From Thermocatellispora tengchongensis (GTDB lineage: Bacteria; Actinomycetota; Actinomycetes; Streptosporangiales; Streptosporangiaceae), in contig NZ_JACHGN010000004.1 in assembly GCF_014202315.1 (NCBI RefSeq), positions 496,001 through 560,000 of the forward strand: DNA of 64,000 nucleotides, given 5' to 3'. The notes below the pieces were generated by a model. That model did not search any database and was not told the DNA's origin. It saw nothing but the letters and a program-made list of their open reading frames with translations. Positions 9,171 through 20,014 of this stretch are shown in pieces (the stretch's first letter is position 1; the number at the start of each line of letters is the position of its first letter). The position numbers and the translations under genes were made by a program.

Positions 9171-10148
9171 TCAGTTGGGGGGTGTGGCTGGGAGGGCGAA
9201 GGCGGGGAACAGGGCGGGGGTGTGGAAGGCGGTCATCTCCGCGATGCGGCCGTCCTCCACGCGCAGGACCGAGATCGCGGCGGGGGCGTACGCGGTCTCG
9301 CCGGGGCCGCGGAGGTAGACGCCGGCGGCGGGGTGGCCGTTGGCGCGGGTGGGCAGCAGGCGGAACCGGCCGGTGTAGTGCGGTGAGGCGGGGTCCCAGC
9401 TCGTCGTGAGGGTGGCCATGACGGCCTCGCGGCCCCGGTACCACATCGGGAACGGCGGCATCGCGGCGCGGACGTCTTCGGCCAGCAGGGCCGCGACGGC
9501 GGCGAGGTCGGCGCGTTCGACGGCGGCCATGTAGCGGCGCAGCACGGCGCGCTCCCCGTGCGACGGCTCGGCCGCGGGCGCCCAGTCCGTACGCCGCTCG
9601 GGCAGGTGCTCGCGCATCGTCGCCCGCGCCCGTTGCAGGGCGCTGTTCACCGACGCGACGCTCGCGTCCAGCAGCGCGGCGGTCTCCCTGGCCGGCCAGC
9701 CGAGCACGTCGCGCAGGATGAGCACCGCCCGCTGCCGGGGCGGCAGGTGCTGGATCGCGGCCAGGAACGCCAGCTCGATCGTCTCCCGGGCCTCGGCCGC
9801 GGTCTCCGGCTGGTCCAGCAGATGGTCCGGGAACGGCTGCAACCAGGGGATGTCGGTGCGCGGCGGCAGATCGGCGTCCGGGTCGTACGGGCCGGAGAGG
9901 TCCTGCGGGAGCACCCGGCGCGCCCGGCCGTCCAGGACGTCCAGGCAGGCGTTCGTGGCGATCCGGTACAGCCAGGCGCGAACCGTCGAGCGTCCCTCGA
10001 AGCCCGGCAGGTTCTTCCAGGCGCGCAGGAACGTCTCCTGCACCAGGTCCTCCGCCTCGTCGTAGGAGCCGAGCATGCGGTAGCAGTGCACCCGCAGTTC
10101 CCCGCGGTGCCGCTCGAACAGTTCCGCGAAGGCGGCCTCGTCTCGCAC
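9171..10148 (-). CDS. ECF-type sigma-70 factor with SnoaL-like C-terminal domain
   Basis: RNA polymerase sigma factor of about 325 residues. Region 2 is CYRMLGSYDEAEDLVQETF followed by the WLYRIATNACLD core. Region 4 has LPPRQRAVLILRDVLGW and an HTH ending VNSALQRAR. A SnoaL-like domain of about 115 residues follows (YMAAVERADLAAVAALLAEDV, WYRGREAV), as in SigG/SigJ-type and TIGR02960-like factors, where the tail modulates activity. The GTG at 10148, 5 nt after the GDP-mannose dehydratase stop, is the only normal start available. Family members usually have about ten more residues, and a matching DELALTA is encoded in frame just upstream without an ATG or GTG. The true start may therefore be non-canonical. 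Confidence 0.8.
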   Translation of the reverse strand: MRDEAAFAELFERHRGELRVHCYRMLGSYDEAEDLVQETFLRAWKNLPGFEGRSTVRAWLYRIATNACLDVLDGRARRVLPQDLSGPYDPDADLPPRTDIPWLQPFPDHLLDQPETAAEARETIELAFLAAIQHLPPRQRAVLILRDVLGWPARETAALLDASVASVNSALQRARATMREHLPERRTDWAPAAEPSHGERAVLRRYMAAVERADLAAVAALLAEDVRAAMPPFPMWYRGREAVMATLTTSWDPASPHYTGRFRLLPTRANGHPAAGVYLRGPGETAYAPAAISVLRVEDGRIAEMTAFHTPALFPAFALPATPPN

Positions 10149-10153
10149 GGCGG

Positions 10154-11182
10154 TCAGGGCCAGCTCGTCGCCTGGGCCGGGTCGGGGCCCGCGGCCAGCA
10201 GGCGGGTGTCGGCCTCGACCATCATGGCGACCAGTTCCTCGAAGCTGACGCCGGGGTCCCAGCCGAGGTTCGCGCGGGCCTTCTTGGGGTCGGCGCACAG
10301 CAGGTCCACCTCGGCGGGGCGGTGCAGGGACTGGTCGGCCACCACGTAGTCCTCCCAGTTCAGGCCGGCGGCGGTGAAGGCGGCCTCGACCAGCTCGCGT
10401 ACGGAGTGGGTGCGGCCGGTGCCGATGACGTAGTCCTCGGGCGCGTCGGCCTGGAGCATGAGGTGCATCGCGCGTACGTAGTCGCCGGCGTAGCCCCAGT
10501 CGCGGCGGGCCTCCAGGTTGCCGAGCCGCAGCTCGCCTGCCAGGCCGAGCCTGATCCGGGCCACGCCGAGGCTGACCTTGCGGGTGACGAACTCGGCGCC
10601 GCGCCTGGGGCTCTCGTGGTTGAACAGGATGCCGGAGACGGCGAACATGCCGTACGACTCGCGGTAGTTCTGGGTCAGGAAGTGGCCGTACGCCTTCGCC
10701 ACGCCGTACGGCGACCTGGGGTGGAAGGGGGTGCGCTCGTTCTGCGGGGTCTCGCGGACCTGGCCGAACATCTCCGAGGAGGACGCCTGGTAGAAGCGGA
10801 TCTGGCCCGACCGGTCGGCGGTGCGGGAGCTGGAGATGCCGCTGCACACGCGGATGGCCTCCAGCATGCGCAGCACGCCCATGCCGGTGACCTCGGCGGT
10901 CAGCTCGGCCTGCTCCCAGGACATGGGGACGAAGGAGATCGCGCCCAGGTTGTAGACCTCGTCGGGGTGCACCTTCTCCACCGCGGAGATCAGCGAGCCC
11001 TGGTCCAGCAGGTCGCCGCGGACCAGCCGCACATCGCGGAGCAGCTCGCGGACGTTGGAGACCCGGGGGTTGGCCTGACCGCGGACCAGGCCCCAGACCT
11101 CGTACCCCTGGGCGAGCAGGTGCTCTGCCAGGTAGGACCCGTCCTGTCCGGTGATGCCGGTGATCAGCGCACGCCTGGCCAA
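10154..11182 (-). CDS. gmd: GDP-mannose 4,6-dehydratase
   Basis: Extended SDR enzyme that makes GDP-4-keto-6-deoxy-D-mannose, the precursor of GDP-L-fucose, rhamnose and related sugars. The start ALITGITGQDGSYLAEHLL, then VYNLGAISFVPMSWEQ, YQASSSEMFGQVRETPQ, the catalytic YGVAK, and the RRDWGYAGDYV and TGRTHSVRE motifs are diagnostic. TTG at 11182 is selected as start because GGAGG lies 4 nt upstream and the protein then begins at the family-typical position. An ATG at 11209 would add nine poorly conserved residues. It is divergent from the GT4 glycosyltransferase cluster, which may use its product. Confidence 0.93.
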   Translation of the reverse strand: MARRALITGITGQDGSYLAEHLLAQGYEVWGLVRGQANPRVSNVRELLRDVRLVRGDLLDQGSLISAVEKVHPDEVYNLGAISFVPMSWEQAELTAEVTGMGVLRMLEAIRVCSGISSSRTADRSGQIRFYQASSSEMFGQVRETPQNERTPFHPRSPYGVAKAYGHFLTQNYRESYGMFAVSGILFNHESPRRGAEFVTRKVSLGVARIRLGLAGELRLGNLEARRDWGYAGDYVRAMHLMLQADAPEDYVIGTGRTHSVRELVEAAFTAAGLNWEDYVVADQSLHRPAEVDLLCADPKKARANLGWDPGVSFEELVAMMVEADTRLLAAGPDPAQATSWP

Positions 11183-11505
11183 CGGTCCTCCACACGCTCG
11201 TACGCACACGGTTCGGGCGCCGGTGGACGCACGACCCGTTGCGGGACATTTAGCGCGAATGTACAGCCTGACCCCGTCGCGATCACCGTCTCGGCCCCCG
11301 TCCAGCTAGAACTCGTTCCACCGAATCACGCTCGGTCGGGCTAACTGCCCAGTTCGCACAGTGTGATGGTGATGCGAGGCACAATTCCACATCAGCCCCC
11401 ACGGACCTACCGAATGGTAAGGTTCCGGACTAAGGTCATCTTTCACGGTACAAGCCCCACTCGGGCGGCTACCGGTCGCCATCGGCGAGAACGAAAGGGG
11501 TTACC
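11183..11505. other. Divergent intergenic region between gmd and the GT4 gene
   Basis: No gene is seen. The region must hold both divergent promoters. At 11307-11320, TAGAACTCGTTCCA fits TNNAACNNGTTNNA with one arm imperfect; it is a weak KstR-like match that may be chance. The stretch near 11411-11445 (GGTAAGGTTCCGGACTAAGG) is locally less GC-rich and is the likely rightward promoter area. Confidence 0.4.
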
Positions 11506-12753
11506 GTGGCAGGTGCGGAGTCGCTGCGGGTCGCGCTGCTCTCCTACCGCAGCAAGCCCACCTGCGGGGGGCAAGGGGTCTACCTCCGCCATCTGAGCCG
11601 GGAGCTCGTCGGGCTGGGCCACTCCGTGGAGGTGTTCTCCGGCCAGCCCTACCCGGAGCTGGACGAGGGCGTGAAGCTGACCAAGGTGCCCAGCCTGGAC
11701 CTCTACCGCGACGAGGACCCGTTCCGCACCCCCGGCCTGCGCGAGTTCCGCGACTGGATCGACGTCCTGGAAGTCGGCACGATGTGGACCGCCGGCTTCC
11801 CCGAGCCGCTGACCTTCTCGCTGCGGGCGTACCGGGAGCTGAAGAAGCGGGTCGGCGACTTCGATGTGGTGCAGGACAACCAGACGCTCGGGTACGGCCT
11901 GCTCGGCATCCAGAAGCTGTTCCCGGTGGTCGGCACGATCCACCACCCGATCAGCGTGGACCGGCGGATCGAGCTGGAGGCGGCCGAGGGGATCAAGAAG
12001 CTGACCATGCGCCGCTGGTACGGCTTCGTGCGCATGCAGAGCCACGTCGCGCCGCGGCTCAGCCCGATCCTCACCGTCAGCGAGTCCTCCCTGGCCGACA
12101 TCCACCGCGACTTCAACGTGCCGCAGGCGAACATGCGGCTGATCCCGCTGGGTGTGGACACCCGCTACTTCCACCCCCGTCCGCACCTGCCCAAGCGCAA
12201 GGGCTCGATCGTGGCCGTGGCCAGCGCCGACTCCCCGATGAAGGGCGTGGCCACGCTGCTGCGGGCGGTCGCCAAGCTGGCCACCGAGCGCGACGTGAAC
12301 CTGACCGTGGTCAGCAAGCCGACGCCGGGCGGGCCCACCGAGAAGCTGGTGGGCGAGCTGAGCCTGCACGACCGGGTGCGCTTCGTGCACGGCATCTCGG
12401 ACGAGGAGCTGGGCGAGCTGATCGCGACCTCGGAGATCTCGGTCGTGCCCAGCCTGTACGAGGGCTTCTCGCTGCCCGCCGTGGAGCACATGGCGTGCGG
12501 CACCCCGCTGGTCGCCAGCCGTACGGGCGCGCTGCCCGAGGTGGTCGGCGACGCGGCGGTGCAGGTCGCCCCGGGTGACGCCGAGGAGCTGGCCGCCGTG
12601 CTGCGCCGCCTGCACGACTCGCCCGAGGAGCGCGAGGCGGTGGGCCGCCGGGGCTACGACCGGGTGATGGAGCGCTTCACCTGGCGCGTCGTCGCCAAGC
12701 GCACCGCCGAGACGTACCGCGAGGCCATCGAACGCCACAAGACGCGCAAGTAA
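11506..12753 (+). CDS. Glycosyltransferase family 4
   Basis: GT-B retaining glycosyltransferase of 415 residues, cytoplasmic or peripheral to the membrane. The N-terminal GGQGVYLRHLSREL motif binds the acceptor side. The C-terminal nucleotide-sugar domain has IPLGVDTRYF, SADSPMKG and the E-x7-E motif in EGFSLPAVEHMACG, which contacts the donor. The GTG at 11506 is preceded by GAAAGGGG. The next gene starts 30 nt later, and three to four genes on this strand form an apparent operon. The acceptor is unknown. The divergent gmd gene suggests a GDP-6-deoxyhexose or GDP-mannose donor, which is inference. Confidence 0.88.
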   Translation: MAGAESLRVALLSYRSKPTCGGQGVYLRHLSRELVGLGHSVEVFSGQPYPELDEGVKLTKVPSLDLYRDEDPFRTPGLREFRDWIDVLEVGTMWTAGFPEPLTFSLRAYRELKKRVGDFDVVQDNQTLGYGLLGIQKLFPVVGTIHHPISVDRRIELEAAEGIKKLTMRRWYGFVRMQSHVAPRLSPILTVSESSLADIHRDFNVPQANMRLIPLGVDTRYFHPRPHLPKRKGSIVAVASADSPMKGVATLLRAVAKLATERDVNLTVVSKPTPGGPTEKLVGELSLHDRVRFVHGISDEELGELIATSEISVVPSLYEGFSLPAVEHMACGTPLVASRTGALPEVVGDAAVQVAPGDAEELAAVLRRLHDSPEEREAVGRRGYDRVMERFTWRVVAKRTAETYREAIERHKTRK

Positions 12754-12783: not shown

Positions 12784-13497
12784 GTGCTGACTGTCGATTT
12801 CGAACACCTGCCGGTCGGGCCGGGGAACCGGGTGCTCGACCTGGGCTGCGGCGGCGGGCGGCACGCCTTCGAGGTGTTGCGCCGCGGCGCCGACGTGGTG
12901 GCCTTCGACCAGGACGCGGCGGAGCTGGAGAACGTGGCGAACATGTTCGCGGCGATGGACAAGGCGGGCGAGGTGCCGCCGGGCGCGACGGCGGAGACGA
13001 CGGTCGGCGACGCGCTGGCCATGCCGTTCGACGACGAGTCCTTCGACCGGGTGATCGCCGCGGAGGTGCTGGAGCACATCCCGGACGACATGGCCGCGAT
13101 GCGGGAGATCGTACGGGTGCTCAAGCCGGGCGGGCGCGCGGCGATCACGGTCCCGAGCTTCCTGCCCGAGCGCATCTGCTGGGCGCTGGACGAGGACTAC
13201 CACACCGCGCCCGGCGGGCACGTGCGCATCTACACCCTGGCCGAGCTGCGGGCCAAGCTGAAGTCGGCGGGCCTGGAGGTCGGGCCGCACCACCACGCGC
13301 ACGGGCTGCACTCCCCGTACTGGTGGCTGAAGTGCGCGGTGGGGGTGAACAACGACGACCACCCGCTGGCGCAGGCGTACCACAAGCTGCTCGTGTGGGA
13401 CATCATGGAGCGGCCGGCGATCACCCGGCTGGCCGAGTCCGTGCTCAACCCGCTCATCGGCAAGAGCGTGGTCGTGTACGCGCGGAAGCCCGCATGA
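12784..13497 (+). CDS. Class I SAM-dependent methyltransferase of the glycan cluster
   Basis: Protein of 237 residues. Motif I VLDLGCGGGRHAFE starts near residue 18, followed by VVAFDQD, the motif GDALAMPFDDESFDRVIAAEVLEH and LKPGGRAAITVPS. The C-terminal half (HVRIYTLAELRAKLKSAG) is typical of UbiE/Methyltransf_11 enzymes acting on sugars or lipids. The GTG start follows GAGGAGCGGC. Its stop overlaps the start of the next gene as ATGA, indicating translational coupling. Confidence 0.87.
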   Translation: MLTVDFEHLPVGPGNRVLDLGCGGGRHAFEVLRRGADVVAFDQDAAELENVANMFAAMDKAGEVPPGATAETTVGDALAMPFDDESFDRVIAAEVLEHIPDDMAAMREIVRVLKPGGRAAITVPSFLPERICWALDEDYHTAPGGHVRIYTLAELRAKLKSAGLEVGPHHHAHGLHSPYWWLKCAVGVNNDDHPLAQAYHKLLVWDIMERPAITRLAESVLNPLIGKSVVVYARKPA

Positions 13498-14567
13498 CGG
13501 CTCCGCCCGAGGTGCCCGGGGTGCTGACCCGGGAGCAGGTGGTGCAGACGGCGCGCAGCATCGCCGCCGTACAGGAGCCCGACGGCGGCGTGCCCTGGCC
13601 CGAGGGGCACGTGGACGCCTGGAACCACATCGAGTGCCTGATGGCCATGACCGTGGCCGGGCTGACCGAGCCTGCCCGGCGCGGGTACGAGTGGCTGGCG
13701 CGGCACCAGCGCGCCGACGGGTCCTGGCCGATGAAGCTGGCCGGCGGCCGGCCGGTTGAGACCGCGGGCGAGAGCAACCACGCGGCCTACATCGCGGTGG
13801 GGGTCTGGCACGAGCTGCTGGTCACCGGGGACGAGGCGTTCGCCCGCGCCATGTGGCCGGTCGTGCGGCGGGCGCTGGACTTCGTGGTGGACCTGCAGAC
13901 GCCGCGCGGGGAGATCCTGTGGGAGCGTGACGCGGACGGGACGCCGGCGGAGTACGCGCTGCTCACCGGCTGCTCCTCGATCCACCAGGGCCTGCGCTGC
14001 GGGGTGAGCCTGGCCGAGCACGTCGGCGACCCGCAGCCCGACTGGGAGCTGGCCGCCGACCGGCTCGGGCACGTGCTGGCCGCGCACCCGGAGGCGTTCG
14101 CCGACAAGAGCCGGTTCTCGATGGACTGGTACTACCCGGTCCTCGGCGGGGCGGTGCGCGGCGCGGCGGCGCGCGAGCGGATCGCGGCCGAGTGGGACAC
14201 GTTCGTGGTGCCGGGCCTGGGCGTGCGGTGCGTGTCGGACCAGCCGTGGGTGACCGGGGCCGAGACCTGCGAGCTGGTGCTCACGCTCGACGCGCTGGGC
14301 GAGCGGGAGCGGGCGCTGGAGCTGTTCGCGGACATGCAGCACCTCCGGCACGAGGACGGCTCGTACTGGACCGGCTGGCAGTTCGTCAACCACAAGCACT
14401 TCCCGCACGAGCGCTCGTCCTACACGGCCGCCGCGGTGGTCCTGGCCGCGGACGCGCTGGCCGGCACCGGCCCGGCCGCGGGCCTGTTCCGGGACGCGCC
14501 GCCCCAGGCCGCGACCGCGGTCTCGGCCACCCCGTGCGGCTGCGACCGCGCCGCCTCGCACACCTGA
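13494..14567 (+). CDS. Prenyltransferase/squalene-cyclase-like alpha/alpha-toroid protein
   Basis: Protein of 357 residues with repeated QW-like segments: IAAVQEPDGGVPWPEG, YEWLARHQRADGSWPMK and MQHLRHEDGSYWTGWQF. Helical stretches alternate between them, as in terpenoid-cyclase toroid folds. It lacks an obvious DxDD or DDxxD catalytic motif, so cyclase activity is not supported. Related proteins are annotated simply as prenyltransferase-like. The last residues hold a CGC motif. ATG overlaps the stop of the methyltransferase gene. It probably works with the neighbouring transferases on a lipid-linked or glycan substrate, which is inference. Confidence 0.75.
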   Translation: MTAPPEVPGVLTREQVVQTARSIAAVQEPDGGVPWPEGHVDAWNHIECLMAMTVAGLTEPARRGYEWLARHQRADGSWPMKLAGGRPVETAGESNHAAYIAVGVWHELLVTGDEAFARAMWPVVRRALDFVVDLQTPRGEILWERDADGTPAEYALLTGCSSIHQGLRCGVSLAEHVGDPQPDWELAADRLGHVLAAHPEAFADKSRFSMDWYYPVLGGAVRGAAARERIAAEWDTFVVPGLGVRCVSDQPWVTGAETCELVLTLDALGERERALELFADMQHLRHEDGSYWTGWQFVNHKHFPHERSSYTAAAVVLAADALAGTGPAAGLFRDAPPQAATAVSATPCGCDRAASHT

Positions 14568-14613: not shown

Positions 14614-14635
14614 AACCGCCGCATGAGCGGCGGTT
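14614..14635 (+). terminator. Hairpin after the toroid-protein gene
   Basis: AACCGCCGC pairs perfectly with GCGGCGGTT across a 4-nt loop. A second stem, GCGGGCC/GGCCCGC, lies just upstream. Together they may terminate the GT4 operon or attenuate transcription into the KS-AT gene. Confidence 0.5.
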
Positions 14636-14671: not shown

Positions 14672-17320
14672 GTGAGCGGTACGGGGACAGGGACGCGCGG
14701 GCCCGTGGACGTGGCGATCGTCGGGATGGCGTGCGTGTATCCGGACGCGCCTGGGGTGCAGGCCCTCTGGGAGAGCGTGCTGTGGCGGCGGCGGGCGCTG
14801 CTGCCCCGGCCCGGCGGCCCGCGGGGCGCGCGCACGGCGCTGATCGAGGGCTGGTCACCGAGCGGGACCAAGCCCCCGATACCGGTCCTGGACGACGACG
14901 CGGCGGGCGGCGACCCGCTGCGCGCGCTGGCCGTGGACACCGCGCACCGCGCGCTCGCCGACCTGAGCGAGCCGTGCGACTGGCTCGACCCGGCGCGGAT
15001 CTCGGTCGTCATCGGCAACCTGCCCTTCACCCCCAAGCCGGGCGGCGGGGACGTGCTCGACCGGCTCGGCCTGGGCGTGGACCGGGCGGGGCCGCTCGGC
15101 GACGACCCGCGCGGCTCCTCGTTGCTGTGCCTGATCACCGCCTGCCGCACCCTGCGCGACGGCGGCGCGGACCTGGCGCTGGCGGGTGGGGTCGAGCTGG
15201 GCACCGGCGCGCTCGCACCGCTGTTCGGCGGCCCCGCGGACGGCCGGGTGGACGGGTTCTGGCCCGGCCAGGGCTGCGGGGTGGTGGCGCTGATGCGCGC
15301 CGCCGACGCCCGCGCCCGGGGGCTGCGCGTGTACGCCGAGATCGCGGGCTGGGGCGTGTCGGCCGAGCGGGCGCCGGGGCCGGGCGGCCCCGCCCTGCCC
15401 GAGGTGGACGGGCGGCTGCTCGCGCTGCGCCGGGCGTACGCGCATTCGGGGGTCCGGCCGCAGGACGTGCGGCTGTTCGAGGGGCACGCCACCACCACGC
15501 CGTACGGGACGGCGGGCCTGGCCGCGCTGGCGCGGCTGCTGCGCCGCCCACCGGCCGAGCCGACGGCCGGGGATGGGCGGCCCGGGGACCAGCAGTCCGG
15601 GGATCAGCGGCCCGGAGACCAGCCGCTGGACACCCGCGCTTACGGCGGGGCGTGGGCGGCCGTCGGCGCGATCGGCGGGAACATCGGGCACAGCGGCGCG
15701 GCGGCCGGGGTCGCCGGGGTCATCAAGGCGGCGCTGGCCGTGGCGCACGGCGTGCTGCCGCCCGCCTGCGGGGCCGACGAGCCGCCGCACCCGCTGGTCA
15801 CCGCGCCCGAGGGGCCGTTGCGCGCGCTCGCCGGGCCGCGCCCGTGGCCGGACGGGGAGCCGCGGCACGCGGGCGTGAGCGCGATGGGCCACGGCGGCGT
15901 GCACGCGCACCTCGTGCTGCGCGAGCCGGGCGCCACTGTGCGCGCCGGCGAGCCGGGCGCGGTGGAGCGCGGCGGCGAGCCGGTGATCGTGCCGCGCACC
16001 CGCGACAGCGCCGCCGCCCCGCCCCGGCCCCGCGACGGCGGCACGGTGCCCCGGGCGTACGCGCACACCCCGTGGCCCTCACCGGCCGATCCGGTGGTGT
16101 TCCCGATCTCGGGCTCCCCCGGCGACGTGCGCACGATGCTGGAGCGGATCGCGGACCAGGCCACCTGCTGGCACGAGGCCGAACTGCTCGACCTGGCCCG
16201 CGCGCTCGCCCACCAGACGCCCCGCGGCCCGCTGCGGGTGGCGCTGGTGGCCGGCTCGGCGGAGCTGCTGGCCGAGCGCGCCCGGCTGGGCCTGGAACTG
16301 GCCGCCGACCCGCCACCGGGCAGGCTGGTCACGCGGCGGGGCGTGCGGGCCGGACTGGGCGTGCGCGGCCGGGTGACGCTGCTGTTCCCGGGCCAGACCG
16401 CCCCGCTGCGACGTCCCGAGGATGTGGCCTGGCGGCGCCGCGAGGAGCCCGTGTGGGACACCGCGGTGGCACAGCCGGCCGCGCTGGAGGCCGCCCTGGT
16501 GGCGCTGCGCGAGCTGGACGCGCTCGGGCTGAACGCGGGCGCGGCCATCGGGCACGGCGTGGGCGAAGTGGCCGGGCTGGTCTGGGCGGGCTGCCTGACC
16601 TCGCAGGACGCGCGCCGGCTGGTACGCCGCCGGGGGCGGCTGATGAGCGACGCCGGGACCCCCGGCACCGGCATGCTGAGCGTGACGGCGTCCCGGGAGG
16701 AGGTCGAGCGGCTGGTCACCGGGACGGGGCTGGTGGTGGCCGCGGTGGACGGGCCCAGGGCGCACGTGTTGTCGGGCCGTACGGCGGAGCTGATGCTGGC
16801 GGCCAAGCGGGCCGAGGCCGAGGGGCTGGAGACGGTGCGGCTGCCGGCGACCAGGGCGCTGCACTCGCCGTACGTGGCGGCCTGCCAGCAGGGCTTCGCC
16901 GAGTGCCTCCAGGGCGTGACGTTCCTGCCCGCGCAGCGGCCGCTGATCTCGACGGTGACCGCCCAGCCGGTGGGCCCGCACGACGACCTGGCGGTGCTGC
17001 TGCGGGCGCAGATCGTCGCGCCGGTGCGGTTCTGGGACGCGGTGCAGCGGGTCGCCGGGGCCACCGACCTGTTCTGCGAGGCCGGTCCGGGGCGCGGGCT
17101 GTCGGCGCTCGCCGCCGCCACGGGGGTGCCGACGGCGGCCACCGACACGTACGGGCCCGACGGGGTGGCGCGGGCGGAGACGGCGGCGGCGCTGTGGGCG
17201 TGCGCGGCCGTGCCCGACCTGACCGCCTGCTACGCCGACTGCCCGGGGCGCCCGATGGACCCCTGGCGCGAGCGCGTCTTCGCCGGGGCCCCGCTCAGAT
17301 CCCCGGACCTACGCGCCTGA
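14672..17320 (+). CDS. KS-AT didomain protein lacking both catalytic nucleophiles
   Basis: Protein of 882 residues with a beta-ketoacyl-synthase domain (about 10-430) and an acyltransferase domain (about 565-850), and no ACP. The KS keeps both histidines, H272 (EGHATTTPYG) and H340 (NIGHSG). At the active-site elbow, where TACSSSL is expected, it has DPRGSSL, so Cys is replaced by Arg147 (alignment by eye). The AT keeps the FPGQ start and the HSPY His, but the GHSxG serine is Gly629 (IGHGVGE). Both domains therefore look catalytically silent, and a scaffold or regulatory role is more likely than chain extension. The linker at 300-319 is a four-fold pentapeptide repeat. Its end overlaps the convergent methyltransferase gene by 26 nt. 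Confidence 0.85.
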   Translation: MSGTGTGTRGPVDVAIVGMACVYPDAPGVQALWESVLWRRRALLPRPGGPRGARTALIEGWSPSGTKPPIPVLDDDAAGGDPLRALAVDTAHRALADLSEPCDWLDPARISVVIGNLPFTPKPGGGDVLDRLGLGVDRAGPLGDDPRGSSLLCLITACRTLRDGGADLALAGGVELGTGALAPLFGGPADGRVDGFWPGQGCGVVALMRAADARARGLRVYAEIAGWGVSAERAPGPGGPALPEVDGRLLALRRAYAHSGVRPQDVRLFEGHATTTPYGTAGLAALARLLRRPPAEPTAGDGRPGDQQSGDQRPGDQPLDTRAYGGAWAAVGAIGGNIGHSGAAAGVAGVIKAALAVAHGVLPPACGADEPPHPLVTAPEGPLRALAGPRPWPDGEPRHAGVSAMGHGGVHAHLVLREPGATVRAGEPGAVERGGEPVIVPRTRDSAAAPPRPRDGGTVPRAYAHTPWPSPADPVVFPISGSPGDVRTMLERIADQATCWHEAELLDLARALAHQTPRGPLRVALVAGSAELLAERARLGLELAADPPPGRLVTRRGVRAGLGVRGRVTLLFPGQTAPLRRPEDVAWRRREEPVWDTAVAQPAALEAALVALRELDALGLNAGAAIGHGVGEVAGLVWAGCLTSQDARRLVRRRGRLMSDAGTPGTGMLSVTASREEVERLVTGTGLVVAAVDGPRAHVLSGRTAELMLAAKRAEAEGLETVRLPATRALHSPYVAACQQGFAECLQGVTFLPAQRPLISTVTAQPVGPHDDLAVLLRAQIVAPVRFWDAVQRVAGATDLFCEAGPGRGLSALAAATGVPTAATDTYGPDGVARAETAAALWACAAVPDLTACYADCPGRPMDPWRERVFAGAPLRSPDLRA
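15569..15628 (+). repeat. In-frame 15-nt tandem repeat within the KS-AT gene
   Basis: Four consecutive 15-nt units encode GDGRP, GDQQS, GDQRP and GDQPL. They sit in the linker between the two KS histidine segments. Units differ at a few positions. Confidence 0.85.
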
Positions 17321-17939
17321 GCACGCGCAGCGAGCCCTCCTTGCGCACCTCGGCGAACGCGCCGGAGCCGATCGCGCGGAGGTAGACGTGGTACGGCGCC
17401 TGCCCGCCGTCCTCGGGCGATTCGAACACGTCGTGGATGGCCAGCGCGCCGCCCTCCACCACGTGCGGCGCCCAGCCCTCGTAGTCGGCGTTGGCGGGCT
17501 CCTCGGAGTGCCCGCCGTCGATGAACAGCATGCCGAGCGGGGTGTTCCACAGCCGGGAGACCTGCTCGGAGCGGCCGACGACCGCGATCACCTCGTCCTC
17601 CAGCCCGGCGGCGGCGATGGTCTGCCGGAACACCGGCAGCGAGTCCATCTTGCCGAAGCGCAGGTCCATCAGCGTGGGGTCGTGGTGCGCCCAGCCGGGC
17701 TGGATCTCCTCCGAGCCGCGGTGGTGGTCCACGGTGATCACGACCGACCCGGTCAGCCGGGCGGCGGCCCCCAGGTAGATCGCGGACTTGCCGCAGTAGG
17801 TGCCGATCTCGCACAGCGGCCCGCGGGAGCCGTACTCGCACGCGGTCTCGAACAGCGCGCGGCCCTCGGCGGACGGCATGAACCCCTTGGCGCGCTCGGC
17901 CGCCTTGAGCAGATCCGGCGGCATGATCGCCTCGACCAT
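17295..17939 (-). CDS. Methyltransferase_24-type SAM-dependent methyltransferase
   Basis: Protein of 214 residues. CEIGTYCGKSAIYLG (about residues 43-57) is the SAM-binding motif I of the Methyltransf_24/CmcI-like family, followed by VITVDHHRGSEE and MLFIDGGHSEEP, which supplies the metal-binding and catalytic acidic residues. These enzymes O-methylate sugars or catechol-like substrates. It is convergent with, and overlaps, the KS-AT gene. It belongs to the glycan cluster by position only. Confidence 0.85.
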   Translation of the reverse strand: MVEAIMPPDLLKAAERAKGFMPSAEGRALFETACEYGSRGPLCEIGTYCGKSAIYLGAAARLTGSVVITVDHHRGSEEIQPGWAHHDPTLMDLRFGKMDSLPVFRQTIAAAGLEDEVIAVVGRSEQVSRLWNTPLGMLFIDGGHSEEPANADYEGWAPHVVEGGALAIHDVFESPEDGGQAPYHVYLRAIGSGAFAEVRKEGSLRVLRRVGPGI

Positions 17940-18096
17940 CGACAGGCCCCTTTTGCAGGTGTGTGACCCAGTTGAGGATGCACCTTACGAGGTCGGAGCA
18001 CCCCCGCGCCAACCGGGAGCCGGGGCCGTGCAACGAACCGAACAACATTCCGGAGACCCCTTGCCCGAGCTGGCTGAAACCTGTTCTACTGACCTC

Positions 18097-18579
18097 GTGA
18101 ACCAACGGGCCCGCATCGCGATGTCCCCCGCGGAGGTCGAGGCCGTCGTCGCCGAGTCGCGCAAGCTCCAGCTCGGCACGATCAACCCCGACGGCACGCC
18201 GCACATGGTGACCATGTTCTATGGCACCCGGGACGGCAAGATCACCTTCTGGACCTACGCCAAGGCGCAGAAGGCGCGCAACATCGCCCGCGACCCCCGG
18301 GTGACCTGCCTGATCGAGGCCGGCGACGAGTACGCGGAGCTGCGGGGGGTCATGATCTACGGCGAGGCGCGGCTGATCGACGCGCCCGAGGAGATCCTGG
18401 ACGTCGGCCTGGCGGTGACCAGGCGGATGGCCGGGCTCCAGGAGGCCGACGTCAACGATCAACTCCGCGAATACGTCGCGCATACCGGACGCAAACGAGT
18501 CGCCTTCGTCGTCGAGCCGCGCCGCGTGGTGTCATGGGACCATCGCAAGCTCGGCGCCGCGGCGCCCGCCGGCGCATGA
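18097..18579 (+). CDS. PPOX-class split-barrel protein, probable F420- or FMN-dependent
   Basis: Protein of 160 residues of the pyridoxamine-phosphate-oxidase-like split barrel. LQLGTINPDGTPHMVTMFYG, ITFWTYAKAQKARNIARDPRVT and RGVMIYGEARL match the actinobacterial F420-binding group, which reduces or oxidises small molecules with F420H2 or FMN. A TTGCCC (18061-18066) and TGTTCTACT (about 18082-18090) form a promoter that would start the transcript at the GTG, so the mRNA is probably leaderless. An in-frame ATG at 18121 is the alternative. Ferredoxin and alcohol dehydrogenase genes follow on the same strand. Confidence 0.82.
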   Translation: MNQRARIAMSPAEVEAVVAESRKLQLGTINPDGTPHMVTMFYGTRDGKITFWTYAKAQKARNIARDPRVTCLIEAGDEYAELRGVMIYGEARLIDAPEEILDVGLAVTRRMAGLQEADVNDQLREYVAHTGRKRVAFVVEPRRVVSWDHRKLGAAAPAGA

Positions 18580-18597
18580 TTCCCGGAGGTGACCCAG

Positions 18598-18789
18598 GTG
18601 AAGGTCAAAGTCGACTACTTGGTGTGCGAGGCCAACGCGGTCTGCACCGGTCTCGCGCCAGAGGTCTTCGAGCTCGACGACGAGGACCAGTTGCACCTGC
18701 TGCTGCCCGAACCGCCGGCCGAGATGGCCGACCGGGTCCGGCAGGCGGTGCGTTCCTGCCCGAAAGCCGCCCTGTCCCTAGAGGAATAG
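18598..18789 (+). CDS. [3Fe-4S]-type ferredoxin
   Basis: Protein of 63 residues. Cys residues occur as C-x5-C (CEANAVC) and a distal CP (SCPKAA), the pattern of small 3Fe-4S ferredoxins that feed actinobacterial P450s. The usual APEVFELDDEDQ stretch is present. GTG at 18598 is chosen because GGAGG lies 8 nt upstream; an earlier GTG at 18589 would overlap that site. It sits 18 nt after the split-barrel gene, in an apparent operon with the zinc alcohol dehydrogenase. The P450 at 1219 is a possible partner. Confidence 0.88.
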   Translation: MKVKVDYLVCEANAVCTGLAPEVFELDDEDQLHLLLPEPPAEMADRVRQAVRSCPKAALSLEE

Positions 18790-18799
18790 GTTCCGACGA

Positions 18800-18874
18800 G
18801 GAATAGCCCCTGGCGGGACGATCCCCAGCGAAACGGCCCCCAGCGGAACAGCCCCTAGCGGAACAGCCCCGGAA
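18800..18874 (+). repeat. Five-unit 15-nt tandem array between the ferredoxin and ADH genes
   Basis: Five diverged 15-nt units, such as GGAATAGCCCCTGGC and GGAACAGCCCCTAGC, fill most of the 121-nt gap. They start 11 nt after the ferredoxin stop. The first unit resembles the gene's own last codons (GAGGAATAG). Confidence 0.85.
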
Positions 18875-18910
18875 GGAGCGGGCGGCGCCCGCCCGAGGAG
18901 GTAACCCCCC

Positions 18911-19996
18911 ATGCGAGCCGCGCTGTTGCACGCCGTCGGTGACGACAAGCTGGACATCCGCGACGACTTCACCCTCGCCCCGATGGGGCCCGCCGACGTG
19001 CGGGTGAAGGTCAAGGCCACGGGTGTGTGCCACTCGGACCTGTCCGTGCTCACCGGGGTCCTGCCGATGCCGCTGCCGGTGATCCCCGGGCACGAGGGCT
19101 CCGGGGAGGTCCTGGAGGTCGGCGACCACGTCACCACGGTCAAGCCCGGCGACCACGTGATCATCAACTGGACCCCGGCGTGCGGCCAGTGCGATCTGTG
19201 CCTGGTGGGCCAGCCGTTCCTGTGCATGACCTACGTCATGGACAGCTTCGTCAAGCCCCGCTTCCGCTTCGGCGGCGAGACCCCGGCCTTCGGCATGGCC
19301 GGATGCGGCACCTGGGCCGAGGAGATCGTGGTGCCCTGGCAGGGCGCGATCAAGATCGACCCCGAGGTGCCCTACGACGTGGCCGCGCTGATCGGCTGCG
19401 GGGTCACCACCGGCGTCGGCGCCGCGCTGAACACCGCCAAGGTACGCCCCGGCTCGACGGTCGCGGTCATCGGCTGCGGCGGCGTCGGCCTGTCGGTGAT
19501 CCAGGGCGCGCGGGTCTCCGGTGCGACCGCGATCCTGGCCGTCGATCCGCTGGAGTCCAAGCACGAGCTGGCCAAGAAGGTCGGGGCCACCCACGCGTGC
19601 ACGCCCGACCAGCTCGCCGGGGCGATCGGCGAGATCACCGGCGGGCGGGGCTTCGACTACGCCTTCGAGGTCGTCGGCAAGTCCCAGGCGATCACGACCG
19701 CCTGGCAGGCGGCCCGGCGCGGCGGCGACGTCATCGTCGTCGGCGCGGGCGCGGCCGACGACATGGTGTCGATCTCCGCGTTCAGCCTGCTGTTCGAGGG
19801 CAAGAACCTGCTCAGCTCGCTGTACGGCGGCTCCGACGCGCGACGCGACTTCCCGTTCTTCGCCAACCTCTGGAAGGCCGGCAAGCTCGACCTGGAGAGC
19901 ATGATCAGCTCCCGGATCAGGCTGGCCGACATCAACGACGCCGTGGCCGCGCTGAAGGGCGGCGAGGTGCTGCGCCAGATCGTCGTCTTCGACTGA
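18911..19996 (+). CDS. Zinc-dependent alcohol dehydrogenase, class-III/NDMA-dependent type
   Basis: Medium-chain dehydrogenase of 361 residues. The catalytic zinc site is GVCHSD, GHEGSGEV and a later Cys, and the structural zinc loop is CGQCDLCLVGQPFLC. VIGCGGVGLSVIQGA binds NAD. Actinobacterial homologues beside ferredoxin genes oxidise primary alcohols, including steroid side-chain alcohols made by P450s, often with tightly bound NAD(H). ATG at 18911 follows GAGGAGG. A very strong palindromic terminator follows. Pairing with the P450 for side-chain oxidation is inference. Confidence 0.88.
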   Translation: MRAALLHAVGDDKLDIRDDFTLAPMGPADVRVKVKATGVCHSDLSVLTGVLPMPLPVIPGHEGSGEVLEVGDHVTTVKPGDHVIINWTPACGQCDLCLVGQPFLCMTYVMDSFVKPRFRFGGETPAFGMAGCGTWAEEIVVPWQGAIKIDPEVPYDVAALIGCGVTTGVGAALNTAKVRPGSTVAVIGCGGVGLSVIQGARVSGATAILAVDPLESKHELAKKVGATHACTPDQLAGAIGEITGGRGFDYAFEVVGKSQAITTAWQAARRGGDVIVVGAGAADDMVSISAFSLLFEGKNLLSSLYGGSDARRDFPFFANLWKAGKLDLESMISSRIRLADINDAVAALKGGEVLRQIVVFD

Positions 19997-20014
19997 CCGC
20001 CGCCCCCATGGACG

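Follow-up and report, generated by a model that had tools for sequence, protein, structure and literature searches.

A KS-AT protein without its catalytic nucleophiles that is probably maintained for a non-catalytic role

The 64,000-nt stretch of the 11.6-Mb genome of Thermocatellispora tengchongensis analysed here (contig NZ_JACHGN010000004.1, positions 496,001 to 560,000; hereinafter, the window) encodes an 882-aa KS-AT didomain protein (14672..17320, + strand, GTG start codon) that lacks both catalytic nucleophiles, and the question is why such a gene has stayed open. PKS relics are usually taken as junk, whereas in this case, a PKS fragment without both nucleophiles shows signs of selection in three genera. 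The ORF list, Pfam matches, alignment, codon model and trees identify the protein as a probable pseudoenzyme, the N-terminal remnant of an enediyne-PKS-like synthase. Our preferred reading, to which we assign a probability of about 0.6, is that this putative pseudo-acyltransferase with a relic KS is maintained in a non-catalytic role.

Alignment with intact relatives confirms the substitutions proposed in the initial annotation. The KS sequence DDPRGSS aligns on DGACASS, so that Arg147 (codon 15110..15112, + strand) takes the place of the nucleophilic Cys, and GHGVG of the AT aligns on GHSLG, with Gly629 (16556..16558, + strand) in place of the nucleophilic Ser; the histidines are retained as described (His272 and His340 in the KS, His731 in the AT), and Arg654 of the AT is present as well. 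The damage extends beyond the nucleophiles. In the KS, the position of the catalytic Lys is occupied by Gly335 (15674..15676, + strand), and both lysines of the VKxNxGHTK motif are gone (Gly335 and Gly342). In the AT, Thr576 (16397..16399, + strand) replaces the second Gly of FPGQG that is found in all 14 live ATs, and Leu730 (16859..16861, + strand), adjoining the catalytic His731, stands where the 14 live relatives used have Phe. An alternative active site at "C156" had been considered but residue 156 is Thr; the nearby cysteines are at 153 and 158. All 11 intact relatives have Ala or Ser in column 153, and 8 of the 11 have Cys at 158 in addition to the true nucleophile, so the KS is not rescued by any alternative alignment.

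The gene was also taken to be full-length and well preserved, which does not hold: the parent is a KS-AT-ACP-KR-DH protein of about 1,800 aa, of which only the truncated KS-AT end is left, and the KS is eroded. The region from residue 113 to 147 spans 35 residues compared with 91-94 in intact relatives, that from 174 to 197 spans 24 compared with 35, and 98 of the 159 positions invariant in 10 full-length intact sequences are retained. The Pfam matches to the two KS halves are weak (45 and 57 bits), and the match to the AT is better (81 bits). In an AlphaFold model, most of the KS has pLDDT below 50; however, the mean pLDDT was 54 for the window protein and only 42 for an intact control from Sinosporangium, each modelled from the same shallow alignment of eight sequences, and because the intact control was modelled worse, we draw nothing about KS folding from the model.

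The gene resides within a conserved host locus that starts on the left with a GDP-mannose 4,6-dehydratase-like gene (10154..11209, - strand), followed by a GT4 glycosyltransferase (11506..12753, + strand), a class I SAM methyltransferase (12784..13497, + strand) and the gene for what the initial annotation called a toroid protein (13323..14567, + strand; ORF start uncertain). The toroid protein, searched as 13389-14564, shows a weak match to an oligosaccharide amylase and none to Pfam; its gene is present in 149 of 150 family genomes, with or without a KS-AT alongside. The KS-AT slot is the convergent gap between the rightward toroid gene at its left edge and a leftward Methyltransf_24 gene at its right edge (17295..17939, - strand), which overlaps the 3' end of the KS-AT gene by 26 bp. 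A perfect 9-bp inverted repeat, present in a single copy in the window, lies between the toroid and KS-AT genes (14614..14635, + strand). The 104-nt gap between these genes folds more stably than shuffled sequences (z = -3.47), and the repeat is not followed by a T-run; judging from the sequence, it may limit read-through. Near the host locus, the window also encodes a fusion of an ECF-like factor of the sigma-70 type with a SnoaL-like domain (9171-10100, - strand).

Intact relatives in the same slot point to the origin of the KS-AT. In Sinosporangium album, the slot contains a full KS-AT-ACP-KR-DH protein with all motifs intact, beside genes for UnbV/FG-GAP, DUF1702 and 4HBT-type thioesterase proteins; in S. 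siamense, it holds DUF1702, UnbV and a PKS of the same type; and Rhizohabitans encodes, near the same host genes, DUF1702, UnbV and a protein of the order KS-AT-KR-DH in which no ACP was matched at the limit used. A PDB search with the model of the window protein retrieved, as the top match by E-value, the AT of the enediyne synthase DynE8 (4amo; TM 0.90 by target length, 35% identity). The enediyne proteins E3, E4, E5 and E10 are taken here to be DUF1702, UnbV, UnbU and thioesterase, respectively. In the literature, the KR-DH pair after the ACP is described as specific to enediyne PKSs (PMC4599437), DUF1702 proteins are placed in enediyne clusters (PMC7692728), and a five-gene enediyne cassette is given as E3/E4/E5/E/E10 (PMC5181780). 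Given the intact slot relatives, these papers and the DynE8 fold match, the parent of the window protein is, as far as sequence comparison can tell, an enediyne-PKS-like synthase from a DUF1702/UnbV/PKS/thioesterase cassette. No UnbU/E5 gene was identified in the intact cassettes. A "MOSC" query was dropped as a marker of the cassette, since the frame of the thioesterase overlaps with the N-terminal half of this query.

Of 65 loci, 63 have the four host genes complete, and the contents of the slot were surveyed in these; 60 regions were chosen non-randomly, by the better toroid score among 150 genomes, and four loci (L016, L017, L018 and L122) entered the survey via the PKS. The slot is empty (gap below 300 bp) in 29 of the 63 loci, so the host locus does not require the KS-AT, and contains other DNA in 11. 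Another 11 slots hold DUF1702 as the only cassette gene; DUF1702 with UnbV, and DUF1702 with UnbV and a full PKS, occur in two each, a KS-AT-only gene in six, and a DH remnant in one; the last slot holds DUF1702 and a PKS whose AT is deleted. The slots with DUF1702 alone (L059, L068, L079, L084, L085, L090, L096, L104, L107, L108 and L111) suggest that the orphan DUF1702 may also be retained for a function. In the host-gene tree, which includes the same 63 loci (L091 and L106, each lacking a host gene, were left out), the 23 cassette-derived slots all belong to a single clade, which has 24 members and 66% support at its base, with none among the other 39.

An alignment-based scan of genome contigs recovered 45 loci, of which 11 were read as protein, and the closest of these were used in the alignments and trees; a scan of genome contigs with a single-protein query yielded no match. 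By name, carriers of the orthologous gene belong to Microtetraspora, Streptosporangium, Spongiactinospora and Sinosporangium, all presumably members of the family Streptosporangiaceae. The KS-AT-only form is found in seven known genomes, in all of which the protein lacks ACP, KR and DH and the KS is eroded: the region between residues 113 and 147 comprises 25-50 residues, as opposed to the 91-94 of the intact proteins, and 84-104 of the 159 KS invariants are retained. Because these features are common to all seven, the KS was probably crippled before or together with the truncation, even where the Cys remains, as it does in Spongiactinospora rosea, S. gelatinilytica and Streptosporangium sp. 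KLBMP 9127; in the last of these, the KS His is changed to Tyr, and in Spongiactinospora TRM90649 the KS Cys is changed to Ser. The AT motif GHSxG is intact in four of the seven proteins. The AT serine is lost in the other three, namely those from the window, genome G012 and Microtetraspora, and all three have lost the KS Cys as well. The open frames of this dead trio extend over 882, 794 and 1166 codons. The Microtetraspora protein (L017, 8846-12346) has long low-complexity Pro-rich and Thr/Gly-rich insertions within and after the relic KS, and its AT is compact.

What is conserved in the trio is the loss of the nucleophiles rather than the residues that replace them: Arg147 corresponds to a gap in G012 and to Gly in Microtetraspora, and Gly629 is common to the window protein and Microtetraspora, with Asp in G012. 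The initial annotation would have read close homologues with intact Cys and Ser as a sign of recent decay. Such homologues do exist, in S. rosea, S. gelatinilytica and KLBMP 9127; however, both residues are also missing from the two lineages placed with the window protein in the trees, so the loss is not a private, recent decay of the window gene. A second, independent double loss is represented by G028 (L019, about 15027-20000) and the MAG JOPF054 (L126, 9698-12535), which form a separate clade (100% support) with the KS Cys replaced by His and Gln, respectively, and the AT Ser by Gly in both; G028 has also lost the catalytic His of the AT. In the PKSs of Streptosporangium subroseum (L122, 9989-14479) and S. 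canum (L123, 9989-14446), the AT core is deleted in frame and the KR-DH region is still open; the KS Lys is lost in both, and the KS Cys is changed to Gly in S. subroseum.

The joint PKS tree places all seven truncated proteins (the six slot KS-ATs and that of S. gelatinilytica) in one clade with 100% support, and the dead trio is supported at 99%; the window protein groups with the cassette PKSs of Sinosporangium and Streptosporangium at 100%. The trio is also monophyletic in the KS-only tree (96%) and in the host-gene tree (81%); in the latter, one clade (99%) unites the six genomes with a KS-AT only, and all genomes sampled from the clade to which the window belongs (6 of 6) have the KS-AT. 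In the AT-only tree, the trio is weakly supported (65%), and the branching order within it differs between the trees. Thus, the host-gene and PKS trees fit one acquisition of the cassette, vertical descent and erosion that took a different course in each lineage. Loss of the AT activity in a single common ancestor of the trio is the simplest reading although it falls short of proof.

The pattern of change in the AT is concentrated at the active site. Of the 64 AT columns that are invariant in 14 live sequences (a set without the AT-deleted S. subroseum and S. canum, the dead G028 and JOPF054, and the second Microtetraspora cassette), 51 are retained by all three dead proteins, nine by two, one by a single protein, and three by none. 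These three, Gly576 in GQG, Ser629 in GHSxG and Phe730 next to the catalytic His, all belong to catalytic motifs. In live control clades or single sequences, GQG, GHSxG and AFHS are unchanged at the positions that are invariant in the rest; in the live G020, Pro573 beside the GQG loop is changed. The probability of such clustering in the motifs is 0.003 (0.023 with wider windows), for windows drawn after the result had been seen.

The same pattern bears on the unlikely scenario in which the truncated KS-AT was a trans-acting malonyltransferase until recently, each of the three lineages lost the Ser late and on its own, and the gene is on its way out. Retention of GHSxG in four of the seven truncated proteins, with the AT motifs intact in S. 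rosea, is compatible with this course of events, as are the replacements, which differ among the three proteins (Gly, Asp and Gly at 629; Thr, Ser and Asp at 576), and the 65% support in the AT-only tree. Nevertheless, the loss of the same three AT positions, with Phe730 changed to Leu in all three proteins, fits one ancestral loss, and so does the monophyly of the trio in the joint and host-gene trees.

Another alternative is an active enzyme whose nucleophile was re-sited to the polar residue at 576, in a loop that adjoins the former serine. The Gly at this position, present in 14 of 14 live ATs, is replaced in all five dead ATs seen, each time by an oxygen-bearing residue (Thr, Ser and Asp in the trio, Asp in both G028 and JOPF054). 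These residues differ in chemistry, however, and G028 additionally lacks the catalytic His. Moreover, PMC4186864 reports no detectable hydrolysis by a Ser to Ala mutant of the yersiniabactin AT, refutes the idea that the elbow His can step in, and cites the loss of acyl transfer in a purified AT with the same change. Insofar as these results on another AT can be extended by analogy, they support the inactivity of the dead AT; a re-sited nucleophile is very improbable.

A branch codon model with separate omega values for background, other truncated and dead branches shows that the dead AT is as constrained as live ATs, whereas the KS is relaxed but not neutral. For the AT, omega is 0.175 on the background, 0.162 on other truncated branches and 0.178 on the dead branches, and fixing the last value at 1 worsens the fit by 2dlnL = 239.5; for the KS, the respective values are 0.118, 0.205 and 0.218, with the fit worse by 164.3. 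Three omegas instead of one bring a gain of 23.4 for the KS and only 0.4 for the AT. A converged rerun gave identical values, and an alternative topology yielded, for the AT, 0.180 on the dead branches, 0.177 on the background and 2dlnL = 235.5; IQ-TREE fits on the dead trio alone gave 0.157 (AT) and 0.126 (KS). Pairwise dN/dS values within the trio (0.39-0.64) are higher although still below 1, and the codon models are trusted over these counts because the base composition is extreme. The window genus is represented by one species among the genomes searched, and the branches on which the test depends are therefore long (0.60-0.74 neutral substitutions per site at the dead AT tips), so that the omega values carry model error. 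If Ser629 had been lost late and separately in each lineage, the purifying selection on the AT would partly stem from its active past.

These results also bear on a functionless, decaying pseudogene that would be open only because the very high GC content of the genome makes stop codons rare, an explanation that we regard as quite unlikely. It is favoured by the eroded KS, the cassette partner genes that were not found, the low-complexity insertions in one orthologue, and the identity to syntenic orthologues, which is about 52-60% for the KS-AT compared with roughly 75-93% for the host-locus proteins (GT4, methyltransferases, toroid and GMD). It is contradicted by the rejection of neutral omega in both domains, the three frames that stay open over long branches, the third-position GC of 0.965 (0.973 and 0.936 in two neighbouring genes) and the retention of most AT invariants outside the active site. 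The selection for a non-catalytic role proposed in the initial annotation gains support from the codon test even though its premises were only half right, given the truncation and the eroded KS. Having been preserved in three lineages, the dead KS-AT probably does a job other than catalysis.

By sequence and trees, the protein derives from the KS and AT portion of an iterative PKS of the enediyne type, with ACP, KR and DH lost and the KS eroded. The active site of the AT has been dismantled at Ser629, Gly576 and Phe730, most simply in the common ancestor of the window, G012 and Microtetraspora lineages, and the rest of the domain is kept under normal purifying selection. The AT pocket of the window protein retains Gln575, His628, Arg654 and His731, which we take to be, respectively, part of the oxyanion loop, the elbow His, the residue that contacts the malonate carboxylate and the catalytic base. 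Because these residues are retained, the AT together with the KS-AT linker fold may now bind instead of catalysing. Most likely, the pocket would hold an acyl-CoA or acyl-carrier ligand, or a partner protein, without turnover, and the KS-AT would act in sensing, as an adaptor or in docking, the relic KS forming a stalk; any particular ligand is much less probable than a maintained non-catalytic role as such.

Searches of the window genome for DUF1702 and UnbV (PF08012 and PF07593) gave no match; the same searches found matches in six of eight genomes in one case and five of eight in the other. Hence the partner is probably not a cassette protein but a product of the host locus or one of the many PKSs of this genome. 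Neither family was matched in the two Spongiactinospora genomes searched, S. rosea and TRM90649. In G012 (L160, 6219-17072), Microtetraspora sp. NBRC 13810 and Streptosporangium sp. KLBMP 9127 (L161 and L162), a second cassette lies elsewhere in the genome and comprises UnbV, a full PKS and two DUF1702 genes. The motifs of these PKSs are intact, and in G012 a flavin reductase gene follows; the cassettes are possible enediyne-type clusters, and in these three genomes a trans partner for the KS-AT is conceivable.

A broader and only tentative proposal, with the odds against it, is that an enediyne-type cassette was taken over piecewise by a core carbohydrate/methylation locus of Streptosporangiaceae, with one clade keeping a KS-AT, dead in three lineages, as a binder of a ligand or partner and others DUF1702 with or without UnbV, and that on at least two occasions, in the clade of the window and in that of G028 and JOPF054, the AT fold turned into a sensor or adaptor without catalysis. 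The orthologous slot holds relatives in full, truncated and dead form, which provide a natural series for the study of non-catalytic KS-AT roles. There is also a warning for genome mining: the locus resembles enediyne PKS genes, yet the window gene would make no polyketide by the usual chemistry.

Among open-licence papers, we recognised no description of this dead KS-AT or of this slot, but several known systems offer partial parallels. The closest are the enediyne PKSs (DynE8, CalE8, SgcE), which share the domain order KS-AT-ACP-KR-DH with the Sinosporangium album protein and, in the case of DynE8, have the AT that ranks first by E-value among the fold matches of the window protein. The latter, however, consists of KS-AT only, without ACP, KR, DH or nucleophiles; the window thus shows neither the domain order nor the active Cys and Ser, nor the cassette partners searched for (DUF1702 and UnbV), and what it has in common with these synthases is the descent of the KS-AT region, with the DynE8 AT structure as the sole known enediyne PKS in the comparison. 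The KSQ-AT loading didomains (GfsA, PikA1) are likewise KS-AT pairs without the KS Cys. These have Gln at the Cys position and a working AT, whereas the window protein, as the initial annotation recognised, is distinct, with Arg147, an eroded KS, a dead AT (Gly629) and no downstream ACP. The chain-length factor, or KS-beta, of type II PKSs is a KS fold without the active Cys that has a non-catalytic role and pairs with an adjacent KS-alpha; the window contains no other KS at the Pfam cut-off, the nearest weak match being about 18 kb upstream, and the conserved part of the window protein is the AT instead of the KS. The AT-docking remnants of trans-AT PKSs are small, in-line AT-derived pieces kept without catalysis, in contrast to the stand-alone window protein with its near-complete AT fold. 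Finally, the features that define a pseudoenzyme, loss of the catalytic residues with constraint on the rest of the fold, are both seen in the AT of the window protein, and the KS is relaxed.
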